Positions 27,371 through 32,379 of a stretch of DNA of 47,392 nucleotides are shown here, in pieces. The DNA lies in NCBI GenBank assembly GCA_040880525.1, contig JBBDIG010000009.1, positions 1 through 47,392 on the forward strand, given 5' to 3'. Source of the stretch: Bacteroidia bacterium (GTDB taxonomy: Bacteria; Bacteroidota; Bacteroidia; CAILMK01; JBBDIG01). A program made the translations under genes and the position numbers. Numbering within the stretch: the first letter of the stretch is position 1; the number at the start of each line of letters is the position of its first letter. A model generated the notes under the pieces. The model saw only the letters and a list, made by a program, of their open reading frames with translations, was not told the DNA's origin and ran no database searches.

Positions 27371-27395
27371 AGGTTTCGTTTATTTGCAGGCTGAT

Positions 27396-29084
27396 ATGCG
27401 GGATTATAAACCGGGGCTAAATTACTGTTTATGGAAAGGGACGACCGGGATGGTTATCCTCTTGCTGTGGATAACTATATTCTCCGGATGTGGACAAAAT
27501 TCCACAGAAAACCACAAGAAAACTTTTTACTGGAATATGCACAGCGGCATCCGCTCGCTGGATCCCGCTTTTGCCCGTGCCCAATTCGACATTTGGGGAT
27601 GCAATCAACTTTATAACGGCCTTTTGCAACTTGATGACAGTTTGCAGGTGGTTCCGGCCATTGCACGTGGATATCAGGTAGAAGACGGTGGAAAACTTTA
27701 CCGCTTTCACCTGCGGCAGGATGTCCGTTTTCATGACAGCCCCGTGTTCCCAAATGGAAAAGGCAGGCGCGTAGTGGCAGCCGATTTCGTATTCAGCTTC
27801 AACCGGCTCATTGATCCTGCGCTGGCTTCGCCCGGTGCCTGGATATTCAATGACAAGATCATCTTCGATTCCACTGCAACTCCGCCCACCGGGAGCTTTA
27901 CGGCCATTAACGATTCCACGCTGGAAATACGACTGCGCGAACCGTTCCCGCCTTTTGCCGGATTGCTGTCAATGCAGTACTGCTCTGTAATTCCGCATGA
28001 AGCCGCCAGTTTTTTCGGAAAGGATTTCAGACGGAATCCTGTGGGAACTGGGCCGTTCAGGTTTGGCAACTGGGACGAAGAAAATATGCTGGTGCTGAAA
28101 CGAAACGACCACTATTTTGAAACGGAAAACGGGCAGCCACTCCCCTACCTCGATGCTGTGTGCATCAGCTTTATGGCCAACCGGCAGAACGAGTTCTTCG
28201 CTTTCCTGCAACACAATCTCGACCTGCTCTCCGGCATTGATCCTTCTTTTAAAGACAACCTGCTGACGCCACAGGGAAAGCTGCGCCCGCAGTTCGAGGG
28301 TGAATTTGTGATGGAGAAAATCCCCTTCCTGAACACCGAATATTTTGGCATCCTCCGCGACACCAATAGCCCCGTATTGCGCAACAACCCGCTAAGGATG
28401 CGGCAGGTGCGCCAGGCCATCAATTATGGCTTCGACCGGGAAAAGATGATGCGCTACCTGCGCAACAATATTGGCCGTCCAGCTACGGCAGGCATGGTAC
28501 CGCCCGGCCTGCCCTCCTTCAGCGCCAAAGCGGTGGAAGGATATTCATACAACCCGCAGAAAGCACTACGACTGCTTGAAGAAGCCGGATTCCCGAACGG
28601 GCAGGGGCTGCCGGAAATCGCCTGCTTTACCAATCCTACTTATATGGACATAGCCGTTTTCATCCAGCGCCAGTTGCAGGACATTGGCATACGCCTGAAG
28701 ATAGAGACCACGCCTCCGTCCGAGCACCGGCAATACATGGCCGAAAAGAAAATGCCCTTTTTCCGTGCAAGCTGGATAGCCGACTACCCCGATGCCGAAA
28801 ACTACCTGGCCCTTTTCTACAGCCCCTTCAAAGCCCCGGCAGGCCCCAACTACACCCACTTCGGCAACCCCACCTTCGACAGCCTATACGAAGCCTCCCG
28901 CCTCATCACCAACGACTCCGCCCGCTACCCCCTCTACCACCGCATGGAGCGCCTCGTAATGGAAGACGCCCCGGTAGTGGTACTATTCTATGATGAGGTA
29001 ATCAGGCTCATTGGAAATGATGTGCGCGGTTTGAACCGGAATGCTTTAAATTTGGTGAGTTTAAAGCGGGTGAGGAAGGAGTGA
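27396..29084 (+). CDS. Peptide/oligopeptide-binding lipoprotein (SBP_bac_5 family)
   Basis: 562 residues from ATG 27396. After a short cytoplasmic lead and a lipoprotein signal (MVILLLWITIFSGC) comes an extracellular solute-binding family 5 protein: ARGYQVEDGGKLYRFHLRQDVRFHD, the VGTGPFRFG segment, VRQAINYGFDREKMMRYL and RASWIADYPDAENYLALFY near the end. It would bind peptides (or nickel-like ligands) in the periplasm for an ABC importer, but no importer genes are adjacent. The last 600 bases are strikingly C-rich, unlike the AT-rich gene that follows 20 bases later. TTG 27384 is rejected as a start. Confidence 0.88.
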   Translation: MRDYKPGLNYCLWKGTTGMVILLLWITIFSGCGQNSTENHKKTFYWNMHSGIRSLDPAFARAQFDIWGCNQLYNGLLQLDDSLQVVPAIARGYQVEDGGKLYRFHLRQDVRFHDSPVFPNGKGRRVVAADFVFSFNRLIDPALASPGAWIFNDKIIFDSTATPPTGSFTAINDSTLEIRLREPFPPFAGLLSMQYCSVIPHEAASFFGKDFRRNPVGTGPFRFGNWDEENMLVLKRNDHYFETENGQPLPYLDAVCISFMANRQNEFFAFLQHNLDLLSGIDPSFKDNLLTPQGKLRPQFEGEFVMEKIPFLNTEYFGILRDTNSPVLRNNPLRMRQVRQAINYGFDREKMMRYLRNNIGRPATAGMVPPGLPSFSAKAVEGYSYNPQKALRLLEEAGFPNGQGLPEIACFTNPTYMDIAVFIQRQLQDIGIRLKIETTPPSEHRQYMAEKKMPFFRASWIADYPDAENYLALFYSPFKAPAGPNYTHFGNPTFDSLYEASRLITNDSARYPLYHRMERLVMEDAPVVVLFYDEVIRLIGNDVRGLNRNALNLVSLKRVRKE

Positions 29085-29104
29085 AAAACTAACCATTGAA
29101 GAAT

Positions 29105-30313
29105 ATGCAGATGATTAAAAAAATAACTCCATACTTTCAAGTTGAAGATAATTATGTAAAACAATTTGTGATCGATATTATTCCAGTAGATGTCAACTCG
29201 GGAGTTTACATCCTAACCGAAGAAGAACAAAAGGTTATGTACTTCCAAGAATACCACTTAATTGCTAATTGTAACTTTCTTACATTCTGCCAGCACCACA
29301 GTATCGAAACCGAGAATCATTTAACATCATATTTTACCAAAAAGGGCACTGCTAAATTTTTAGTTGAAAATGATCTAAATATTTTCTATGGGGGAATCAT
29401 TTTAGATTACCTTGAGTATTATCCAGAATACCAGAAAACTTTAATGCTAAAATACGATAAGGAAATAAAGATTAGGAAAATCGCCTATGAGAAAGTTTAT
29501 TCAATTGTCGGAAGAGGTGCACACAGATGGTACATAAATCTGTTTGAAGAATGTTTCCTCAGTAACCAAAACACCTATTTAACAGCAGCTGGCTTTGAAA
29601 TAAATAATATTGAGAAAATTCTCTTGGCATCAAGGACAACGATAGTGCGCAATATTGAAAAATTAAAAATCCACAATATTATTTCCTGCGAAATTGATGG
29701 CAGGAATATTCACTACTTAAAGTTCAACTTAGAATTTATCCCAGCCAATTGGCAATCGGCTCCTTCTCTTTTCTCATCAGCTTTTTATCAAGATAAATCA
29801 TCAACCTTGCATAGTTTCACTTGCATTAACAGTCTATTAAAACCTGTAAAAGAAAATAAGAAACGAGAAGGAAATAATTCAAGTAAAGTAAATGTATCAC
29901 AAGACTATATAAAAATCACTGAGAATAATATTAAAATAGGAGACAAATCAGAAGCAGCGGCTTATCAATACGAATTAGATAGATTAAAAGATTTAGGGGT
30001 CGAAAATGCTAATGACTTGGTTGTCTTAGTATCTGAAAACTCAACTTTGGGATATGATATACTCTCTTGTGATTTAAATGGCAAAAAAAGATTTATAGAA
30101 GTAAAGACAGTGAAGCAAACCGGACAGTACAAACGCTTTTACCTCACAAAAAATGAATTAGAAAAAAGTCAAACATTAGATAATTACTACATATATATAG
30201 TAATCTATAGCAATGACAAACCAGAAGTCGCAATGATTCATTGCAAGAATATTGCTGACTCGGAGTACTTCTTGATCAGGCCGACAGAATATGAAGTACT
30301 AATAAACTATTAA
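29105..30313 (+). CDS. Winged-helix plus DUF3883 (PD-(D/E)XK nuclease-like) protein
   Basis: 402 residues. The first ~150 match nothing I recognise. A winged-helix-like segment follows (LLASRTTIVRNIEKLKIHNI ... GRNIHYLKF, about 165-205). The C-terminal ~115 residues fit DUF3883: GDKSEAAAYQYELDRLKDLG, then GYDILSCDLNGKKRFIEVK and RFYLTKNELE. GYD plus IEVK are the expected PD-(D/E)XK nuclease residues, so a DNase or restriction-like role is plausible (inference). DUF3883 is often found in restriction and phage-defence loci. The gene is much more AT-rich than the upstream gene, which suggests transfer. No partner helicase or methylase is adjacent. ATG 29111 is a possible later start. Confidence 0.7.
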   Translation: MQMIKKITPYFQVEDNYVKQFVIDIIPVDVNSGVYILTEEEQKVMYFQEYHLIANCNFLTFCQHHSIETENHLTSYFTKKGTAKFLVENDLNIFYGGIILDYLEYYPEYQKTLMLKYDKEIKIRKIAYEKVYSIVGRGAHRWYINLFEECFLSNQNTYLTAAGFEINNIEKILLASRTTIVRNIEKLKIHNIISCEIDGRNIHYLKFNLEFIPANWQSAPSLFSSAFYQDKSSTLHSFTCINSLLKPVKENKKREGNNSSKVNVSQDYIKITENNIKIGDKSEAAAYQYELDRLKDLGVENANDLVVLVSENSTLGYDILSCDLNGKKRFIEVKTVKQTGQYKRFYLTKNELEKSQTLDNYYIYIVIYSNDKPEVAMIHCKNIADSEYFLIRPTEYEVLINY

Positions 30314-30900
30314 ATATTTATTCGCTTTAGGCTGGCACCTGCCTGTGGCGCATGTCCTATGCAGCTACCCGCTCGCATTATATCACACCACCAGATTTTT
30401 CCCTCCGCTATCGCTGCGGTACCCATGACACATTTTATTATATATCTAAAAAAGAGACATATATTTCAATTGCCAGTTTGTTGAGCCCACTCCCACTTCT
30501 TGTCATTTCGAGTATTTATTTTAAGGCATTAAAAATGAAAGATTTAATGACAGGTCTGGCAGGATGCATGTGCCTACACGCTCAGTAGCGTAGGGTTTAA
30601 ACCCTACGCTACTGAGCCAAGAAAGAGCCTGATCATGAGTGCCCTTACAACATCTGTCATGGGTGCCAGCGGGAGAAATCCTAGCTCGCAGAAAGAACGG
30701 TCAGTGATATTCCAACCTATCCAGGTTTTCTCGCATTCGCGAGAAATGCCAAAGGGGGTGCTTGCGTGTATCTTTTTGATCTTTCCGGAATTCGCGTTAT
30801 TTACTTGTCGGCATTAACGATTGCTGTACAATTCAGTACAACTCTCCAGGGAACACTTCCGGAATTATCGGAGCGTGTAAATCGGAGTCGCCATCCAGCA
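30314..30900. other. Intergenic, palindrome-rich
   Basis: No credible gene. Besides the 36-base palindrome (30581-30616) there is a hairpin TTTCTCGC-ATTC-GCGAGAAA at 30727-30746. The short open frames here lack start signals and any protein-like pattern. Confidence 0.5.
30581..30616. repeat. Perfect 36-base palindrome
   Basis: Two 18-base arms, CTCAGTAGCGTAGGGTTT and its exact complement, meet with no loop. GTAG occurs in both arms, recalling REP feet. It lies about 270 bases downstream of the DUF3883 gene. As RNA it would form a very stable hairpin. Confidence 0.9.
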
Positions 30901-30923
30901 TAGTATTGGAAATACTATATTTG
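30901..30923 (+). promoter_or_regulatory. Promoter and operator-like palindrome of the zeta-toxin gene
   Basis: TAGTATT-GGA-AATACTA (30901-30917) is a perfect 7-base inverted repeat. It overlaps TATATTTG (30916-30923), an exact match to TAnnTTTG. The start codon GTG 30928 (or ATG 30937) follows at once, so the message is nearly leaderless. A palindrome on the promoter is what an autoregulated toxin locus would have. Confidence 0.55.
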
Positions 30924-30927
30924 TAGT

Positions 30928-31502
30928 GTGAAAAAGATGTATATCATAGCCGGGCCGAATGGTGCGGGAAAGACTACGCTGTCTTATACGATCCTGCCGG
31001 AGATATTCGCATGTGAGGAATTCATAAATGCGGATGAAATTGGAAGGGTATATCTCCGCTAAACTCAGAAAAAGCCAGAATTCGCGCTGGACGGTTGATG
31101 TTACAAAGGATAAAGGAACTGTTAAATCAGGGAGAATCTTTTGCTTTTGAAACTACCTTGGCAACCAAAACATATCAGAACTTAATTAACTCTGCTAGGA
31201 AACTTAATTATGAAGTTATACTTCTTTTTTTGGCTTTGGATTCTTCTGAATTGGCCATTCAACGCGTATTAACAAGAGTCATTGAAGGAGGACATAATAT
31301 TCCGGTTGATACGATTAAAAGGAGATTTGATAATGGACTAAGGAATCTTTTTAAAATCTATCTGCCAATCGTAGATAAATGGATTATAATTGATAATTCA
31401 ACAGAGAATTTTGAATTCATTGCAGAAGGATCAGAATCAGAGGTAATCATAAGGAGCAAAAACAAGTGGATTGATTTAAACAAAAAACACAATGGATATT
31501 AA
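30928..31502 (+). pseudogene. Zeta-toxin family kinase gene, frameshifted
   Basis: Frame 1 encodes [23 protein letters not shown] (Walker A) and FINADEIGR, then a stop at 31060-31062. Shifting by -1 near 31041-31047 continues [27 protein letters not shown], then FAFETTLATKTY, ILLFLALDSSELAIQRV, VIEGGHNIPVDTIKRRF and a normal C terminus ending at 31502. The joined protein matches the zeta-toxin/UDP-GlcNAc kinase-like family throughout (ETTL, GGHNIP boxes). The gene is therefore broken by a single base change, unless the base is a sequencing error. The second frame overlaps the next gene by 11 bases. Confidence 0.8.
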
Positions 31503-31674
31503 AGTACAACTTAGGGAATTGGAAGAAAAAGTTAACTTAGGACTTAAAGAAGCTTATCGCAAGATGGCTGTTTTTAAAAAGAAAAATAACAGTCCTTTAA
31601 TTGTCTCTCGTGACGGAAAGGTTACTGTGATTCCCCCGGAACAAATACTCCCGACAACAAAAGCTAAAAATTAA
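31492..31674 (+). CDS. Small partner protein of the zeta-toxin locus (antitoxin-like)
   Basis: 60 residues: VQLRELEEKVNLGLKEAYRKM, then VFKKKNNSPLIVSRDGKVTVIPPEQIL. Proteins with this layout (charged helix, then NSP-hydrophobic-V and a KV-I-P tail) often sit beside zeta-type toxin genes in Bacteroidota (from memory). It overlaps the toxin frame by 11 bases, so translation is probably coupled. The antitoxin role is inference: order and family are suggestive, but no antitoxin domain is recognised. The gene remains intact although the toxin frame is broken. Confidence 0.55.
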   Translation: MDIKVQLRELEEKVNLGLKEAYRKMAVFKKKNNSPLIVSRDGKVTVIPPEQILPTTKAKN

Positions 31675-31774
31675 TTTTCTAACTGAGCATACTTTCGGAT
31701 TCGTGTATCGAAGCCATTTTTACATATCCATGAGTTCAGGTTTCAGCCATTGGATTTATGGCAACTTGGAAGAT

Positions 31775-31861
31775 GGGAGTTTCACTCCCCCGCTGTCGCT
31801 CCGCATACTTGCGGAGTGTCAGCTATTACGAGGCGTCCCGCCTAATTTAGCCCCGAGGGCT
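31775..31861. repeat. Cluster of four hairpins; dispersed two-hairpin repeat, copy 2
   Basis: GGGAGT/ACTCCC (31775-31789), CTCCGCA/TGCGGAG (31799-31816), AGGCG-TCC-CGCCT (31831-31843) and AGCCC/GGGCT (31849-31861). The middle two, with a 14-base linker starting TGT, repeat the layout at 346-387, and AGGCGTCCCGCCT is identical there. Confidence 0.65.
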
Positions 31862-32032
31862 GAAAATAGCTCACATTTTGCTAAAAGGCGGAGCGAGAGC
31901 GCGGTTGTATCTATTGCAGATTGGCGAGACGGAAAAAAATTATAAAATTTTGATTATTCGATAAATTAATTGAAGAGAACTTTTCAAGAATTATTTATTT
32001 GATTAATTCCTTTAAAAAGTAACGGGTAATTC
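31862..32032. other. Intergenic, no gene seen
   Basis: Continuation of the repeat region, then AT-rich sequence without a protein-like reading frame. Confidence 0.4.
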
Positions 32033-32152
32033 TTAAAATTTTTCTACTTGTTTTTTATACCATGCAACAAATTTCCAGGCCTCTCTAACGGGCCATGAAA
32101 TTCCGAAACCTTCACGAAATGCAAGTTCCAATAATTGATACCTCCTGGACAA
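32033..32152 (-). CDS. Possible 39-residue protein (SRRYQLLELAFREG...), or a remnant
   Basis: The minus strand reads SRRYQLLELAFREGFG, then ISWPVREAWKFVAWYKKQVEKF and a stop at 32033. The composition is strongly protein-like (amphipathic, conserved-looking SWPxREAWxFV). No ATG exists; a TTG at 32150-32152 could start it. The frame is open for 22 more codons upstream with a hydrophobic, less convincing sequence. I do not recognise the family. It may be the tail of a decayed gene in the accessory islet. Confidence 0.3.
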   Translation of the reverse strand: MSRRYQLLELAFREGFGISWPVREAWKFVAWYKKQVEKF

Positions 32153-32306
32153 AATCAAAGCAAAATTGCACAAAACCTTACAGCAGCAAGCCAAAAGAAA
32201 AATACCTGCTTTAGCACTTCATTCGATGAGATGAACTAAGTTCGCCTGAACATGCGAAACCCGAATCCGCACCAACAGCGGATTTTAAACACCGGACAGA
32301 TCAAAT

Positions 32307-32338
32307 TTTGTAAATCTCAAGAAGAAAAATTAGCTTTG
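32307..32338 (+). promoter_or_regulatory. Promoter of the multi-PAS kinase gene
   Basis: TTTG (32307-32310), 20-base spacer, TAGCTTTG (32331-32338): a full match to the Bacteroidota sigma-A consensus. Transcription would start near 32345, about 35 bases before the ATG at 32380. Confidence 0.75.
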
Positions 32339-32379
32339 ATTTGCTGACATGAACCGGTCAGCTTTTGAAGTACCAGCAA

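Follow-up and report, generated by a model that had tools for sequence, protein, structure and literature searches.

A stand-alone DUF3883 nuclease gene with a probable winged helix in its unclassified front end, from a horizontally acquired islet of a Bacteroidia genome

The window analyzed here, a stretch of 47,392 nucleotides from a Bacteroidia bacterium (contig JBBDIG010000009.1), contains an intact forward-strand open reading frame (ORF) that runs from an ATG at 29105 to a stop at 30313 and encodes 402 amino acids, with an in-frame TTG at 29096 as a possible alternative start. Its features are collected in Table 1. The spacer between the stop of the preceding SBP_bac_5 gene and this ORF measures 20 bases (29085-29104), and the two genes differ in composition: G+C and GC3 are both 0.318 in the 402-amino-acid gene, against 0.529 and 0.637 in its neighbor, with a G+C of 0.446 over the whole window. 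A sequence-only reading of this DNA had described an orphan gene in an AT-rich islet, lying 20 bases after a far more GC-rich gene and accompanied by neither helicase nor methylase. Each of these points was borne out, as the spacing is exact, 31.8% stands against 52.9% G+C, a dip in G+C extends over ~29.0-32.4 kb, and no helicase or methylase was present among the neighboring ORFs scanned. No defense gene adjoins the ORF and no defense gene cluster surrounds it; no modification enzyme that would protect self DNA was found nearby, and no promoter or terminator signal rose above chance.

Table 1 Features of the 402-amino-acid gene and its surroundings (window coordinates).
Feature	Position	Strand	Basis or remark
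Intact family-5 solute-binding-protein (SBP) gene	27384-29084		PF00496
Whole G+C-poor islet, SBP gene to PAS/histidine-kinase gene	29085..32364	.	relatives in the order lack it at their SBP-purB junction
Whole gene: unclassified N-terminal module followed by a probable winged helix and the DUF3883 nuclease	29105..30313	+	
N-terminal segment, residues 1-116, without database match	29105..29452	+	none of 29 other DUF3883 proteins from the class is related
Helical core and probable winged helix-turn-helix (HTH), residues 117-231	29453..29797	+	shared with 215-aa ORF L009:2109-2756
DUF3883 / NOV_C PD-(D/E)XK nuclease domain, residues 253-402	29861..30310	+	PF13020 at 29951-30235
E283, near-invariant glutamate of the first nuclease helix	29951..29953	+	alignment
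D318 of GYD, predicted metal-binding aspartate, invariant	30056..30058	+	alignment
E332-V-K334 of IEVK, predicted catalytic (D/E)xK, invariant	30098..30106	+	alignment
E351 of the NE helix, invariant	30155..30157	+	alignment

Further along the islet, a broken toxin gene had been said to follow. The toxin is real and frame-broken, although it is not directly next, since ~620 bases of apparently non-coding DNA separate it from the 402-amino-acid gene. It corresponds to a zeta-like toxin kinase (PF06414, 4e-7) that is split between two frames, one with the P-loop part (from 30933) and one with the rest of the gene (31095-31502). Followed by an overlapping 60-amino-acid ORF, maybe its partner, the broken kinase (30933-31674 as a whole) resembles the remnant of a toxin-antitoxin-type pair. 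The islet also holds dispersed repeats on both sides of this remnant. Upstream of it, ~198 bases (30486-30682) are 94% identical to a place on another contig (G000:C26:101774-101971) beside a methionyl-tRNA formyltransferase-like gene, and they enclose a perfect 38-base palindrome, GCTCAGTAGCGTAGGGTTTAAACCCTACGCTACTGAGC, which recurs in at least 4 other places of the genome (twice on C28, and on C41 and C52) as a dispersed palindromic repeat. Downstream, the repeat-like DNA at 31786-31914 matches contigs C21, C6, C22, C42 and C19 at 80-92%.

The gene neighborhood of relatives bears on the origin of the islet. The block parB-parA-hydrolase-SBP is kept in three relatives of the order, and purB comes after the SBP gene within ~280 bases in one genome (G005) and ~650 in another (G002). 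In the genome of the window, purB is found elsewhere, on contig C33, and the islet occupies the place after the SBP gene. Because the 402-amino-acid gene interrupts this conserved parB-parA-hydrolase-SBP-purB neighborhood, it is an acquired accessory gene, and composition and synteny together show this acquisition, a recent and horizontal one. The position of the islet at the SBP-purB junction places the acquisition there and argues against a housekeeping role. Nor are the homologues fixed housekeeping genes, since no more than 35 of 395 genomes of the class contain DUF3883, and the full architecture, in which this front half is joined to DUF3883, was present in no other genome among those searched.

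The C-terminal part of the protein belongs to the DUF3883/NOV_C family, which has been described as a 'novel REase domain' (PMC3710099). Residues 283-377 match PF13020 far beyond chance (E 3.4e-17), with a score of 62.7 bits against a gathering cut-off of 22.1, in agreement with the initial assignment of a DUF3883 C terminus with GYD and IEVK motifs, to which D318 and E332/K334 correspond. Alignment of the window protein with 21 DUF3883 loci drawn from a scan of viral contigs gave a 21-sequence alignment in which G316, D318, S321, I331, E332, V333, K334, E351 and Y364 are invariant and E283 is nearly so. Among these, E283, D318, E332 and K334 make up the canonical E...D...ExK set of PD-(D/E)XK nucleases.

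An AlphaFold (AF2) model of residues 253-402, built on the DUF3883 alignment (mean pLDDT 79), displays a helix-three-strand-helix-strand core, as expected for the PD-(D/E)XK alpha-beta-beta-beta-alpha-beta fold. A sequence search of the PDB turned up no DUF3883 protein. The top structural match of the model is the SPARDA DNase (VIA-align Z 9.8 over 114 residues, 3.8 A), and further matches comprise NhoI/Eco15I (Z 9.1-8.9), the homing enzyme I-Ssp6803I (9.0), the archaeal Hjc resolvase (Z 8.9, 2.7 A) and DpnI (Z 7.6), with HinP1I, SwaI, RecU and EcoRV also in the list. Foldseek E-values reached only ~0.006, and the weight of this comparison comes from the consistency of the list, headed by PD-(D/E)XK DNA-processing nucleases, and not from single rows. 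The nearest solved structures being nucleases, nothing in the model speaks against a nuclease site formed by the GYD/IEVK residues. Judged by its residues and by the model, the C-terminal half is predicted to be nuclease-competent.

The front half is of a different kind. Residues 1-240 had no match in Pfam, NCBIfam, PHROGs or the PDB, in keeping with the earlier reading of the first ~150 residues as matching nothing known, and the front half recurs in 0/29 of the other DUF3883 proteins of the class. Relatives were sought in 395 class and 395 phylum genomes, in viral contigs (with P0001 and the relative described below as queries), in phages and in plasmids. A single partial relative emerged, an ORF of 215 residues from an uncultured member of the same order (genome G011, locus L009 at 2109-2756, CAILMK010000269.1), which carries no nuclease domain. 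The two share 27-30% identity, reliable over residues 117-231 (2.5e-6 in one genome). No others were detected in those sets or when 84,980 species genomes were scanned for patterns, a scan that relied on weak peptides and that relatives may have escaped. Two further matches (L007 and L008) were spurious, one being a beta-repeat secreted protein and the other a stop-ridden frame, and most low-scoring matches were due to chance, with internal stops or unrelated proteins.

The core common to both proteins ends in a pattern typical of winged helices, SRTTIVRNIEKLKIHNII followed by a hairpin-like wing; within residues 117-231, SRTTIVRNIEKL resembles a recognition helix and IISCEIDGRNIHYLKF a wing. 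Only one low-scoring match, a Fic protein (L114), has its HTH in register: its C-terminal winged helix aligned with the front half in hhalign at a probability of 7% (E 0.005), modest statistics given that 1/200 shuffles scored as well and that the family was picked after a 395-genome screen. The proposal of a winged-helix-like segment ahead of DUF3883 thus fits the residue pattern and the register of the Fic match, and in view of the weak statistics it is likely rather than proven; we consider a true winged helix at about residues 140-215 to be quite probable. Since the front half falls into no catalogued family, DNA recognition by it is a guess from the residue pattern. An AF2 model of the whole protein with its one relative reached a pLDDT of 29 and was not used. 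The helix spacing had also prompted a Crp/Fnr reading of residues 20-215, which was rejected: a comparison by hhalign with 19 Crp/Fnr proteins from the order and the class gave probabilities of 0.2-1.8%, and Pfam detected neither a cNMP-binding barrel nor HTH_Crp. Homology to BpuJI_N was likewise rejected, as the best hhalign match covered 13 columns at a probability of 1.8% (range 0.1-1.8%) and Pfam returned no BpuJI_N (PF11564) in the protein at E<=10.

The nuclease half, for its part, is akin by sequence to known single-gene defense proteins, namely PD-T4-1 and the candidate PDC-S36. PD-T4-1, a single-gene anti-T4 defense protein whose domain is given as a PD(D/E)XK nuclease (PMC10952713), was the best PADLOC model for the window protein (PDLC04021, E 1.9e-26, residues 255-400 against positions 227-377 of 383). 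Both have a DUF3883 C terminus, a length of ~400 amino acids and a stand-alone gene on mobile DNA. The window protein is nevertheless not a member, since genuine members span positions 4-382, whereas here the N-terminal ~225 positions of the model are unmatched and give way to an unrelated module that probably contains a winged helix. A plasmid relative, WP_000889012.1, is by comparison a full-length PD-T4-1 (4.6e-205), encoded near tet(B) on a Salmonella IncI resistance plasmid (L010:3269-4471). PDC-S36 (PDLC05008), a candidate phage-defense family, also ends in DUF3883, but has its own conserved N terminus (the KHQNISAVL region), which is absent here, and the window protein matches only positions 112-246 of 280. 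Elsewhere in this genome, on another contig (G000:C7, L005:1150-1977), a further DUF3883 gene encodes a full-length PDC-S36 candidate (1.2e-91, model positions 6-278).

These comparisons extend to other front ends, and reveal DUF3883 as a plug-in nuclease with many interchangeable partners. In prophage nucleases it is fused to MrcB_N (McrB-like; L024, 4.6e-50) or to DUF3427 (L022, 4e-16), which follow the same front-plus-nuclease plan with the same nuclease, although their front ends are named families that bear no similarity to that of the window protein. Viral contigs and genomes also contain front ends of the PD-T4-1 type (L021) and several unnamed ones (L098, L170). In BpuJI, a type IIS enzyme, and in BpuJI_N-DUF3883 fusions, an HTH recognition front is joined to an Hjc-like PD-(D/E)XK nuclease, the layout proposed here, whereas the recognition halves lack significant similarity to that of the window protein and no methylase was seen among the neighbors scanned. 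The fusion is demonstrated by Pfam for L094 (BpuJI_N at 5.2e-102, with a sequence match to the recognition-domain structures 2vla/5hlt), and L092 from viral contigs and L174 and L177 from genomes look alike, which ties the BpuJI architecture to DUF3883. Since such fusions exist, and since two HTH motifs mediate DNA binding by the BpuJI recognition domain (PMC9240713), a DNA-reading front end followed by DUF3883 is an established working plan, and it is chiefly this plan that leads us to the mechanism proposed below. DUF3883 is common on mobile DNA, with a gene flanked by those for repressor and integrase in a Vibrio phage and matches in 1,110 plasmid records (826 conjugative), and its triggers are little understood; many of the listed plasmid places have no gene in the plasmid table. 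What is known here is the single-gene nuclease plan of DUF3883, and what is new is the unclassified, probably winged-helix front end, another uncatalogued one for this nuclease.

The best explanation, which we hold to be somewhat probable, is that the gene encodes a horizontally acquired, single-gene restriction-like DNase that cuts incoming DNA as an anti-phage or anti-plasmid defense. The N-terminal module with its winged helix would recognize a sequence or feature of the incoming DNA, and the DUF3883 domain would then cut the recognized DNA, probably as a dimer and with Mg2+, so that the cell would be protected against phage or plasmid in a layout comparable to PD-T4-1 and BpuJI. The defensive role is suggested by analogy with these two proteins and by the prophage location of relatives. 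A compact defense or transcription-coupled system had been envisaged from the sequence. The nuclease fold, the stand-alone gene, its acquisition and its kinship to defense proteins are consistent with the former, which we still infer, while nothing was found for transcription coupling. If the front end is indeed a DNA-reading winged helix, the protein would be a compact natural example of retargeting a generic nuclease.

Several of the same observations could be read otherwise. A type II(S)-like restriction endonuclease, with the layout of BpuJI, a different recognition domain and a methyltransferase partner lost or located elsewhere, possibly now an inactive or harmless remnant, would account for the resemblance of the nuclease model to Hjc and type II enzymes and would have precedents in the BpuJI_N-DUF3883 fusions, L094 with its match to BpuJI structures among them, and in DNA recognition by HTH motifs. 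Yet no cognate methyltransferase lies among the scanned neighboring ORFs, and similarity between the front half and BpuJI_N is not significant, which makes this reading an unlikely one. In a distinctly unlikely alternative, the nuclease is silenced by its own DNA-binding half, through promoter repression or signal sensing in a toxin-antitoxin-like or Crp/Fnr-like manner, and is freed on infection to cause cell death or dormancy. The long helix-HTH spacing resembles Crp/Fnr by eye, but the hhalign probabilities against Crp/Fnr sets given above speak against it. This alternative also draws on the 215-residue ORF, the sole front-half relative without a nuclease, which overlaps a HEPN-like ORF as if one regulator served different effectors; against this, it is one case only and the HEPN call rests on a motif.

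At that locus (L009:2109-3300), the second ORF contains a HEPN-like RxxxxH motif (RNQFVH), for which no Pfam, PADLOC or informative PDB match was obtained, and the pair may form a two-gene effector system, although the contig ends inside it. The front half might then be a new, interchangeable sensor or DNA-binding module, fused to a DUF3883 DNase here and placed before an overlapping HEPN-like RNase candidate in CAILMK010000269.1, so that an undescribed one- or two-gene defense class would share a common trigger. We regard this as quite improbable; still, what most deserves attention is the front half, together with its recurrence next to the HEPN-like gene. Least probable, and very doubtful in our judgment, is the reading in which the gene is a passenger, now decaying and without current function, left from a degraded mobile element. 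The frame-broken zeta-type toxin gene and the repeat-like DNA of the islet are in keeping with such decay, but the ORF itself is full length over 402 codons and has kept all of the invariant nuclease residues.
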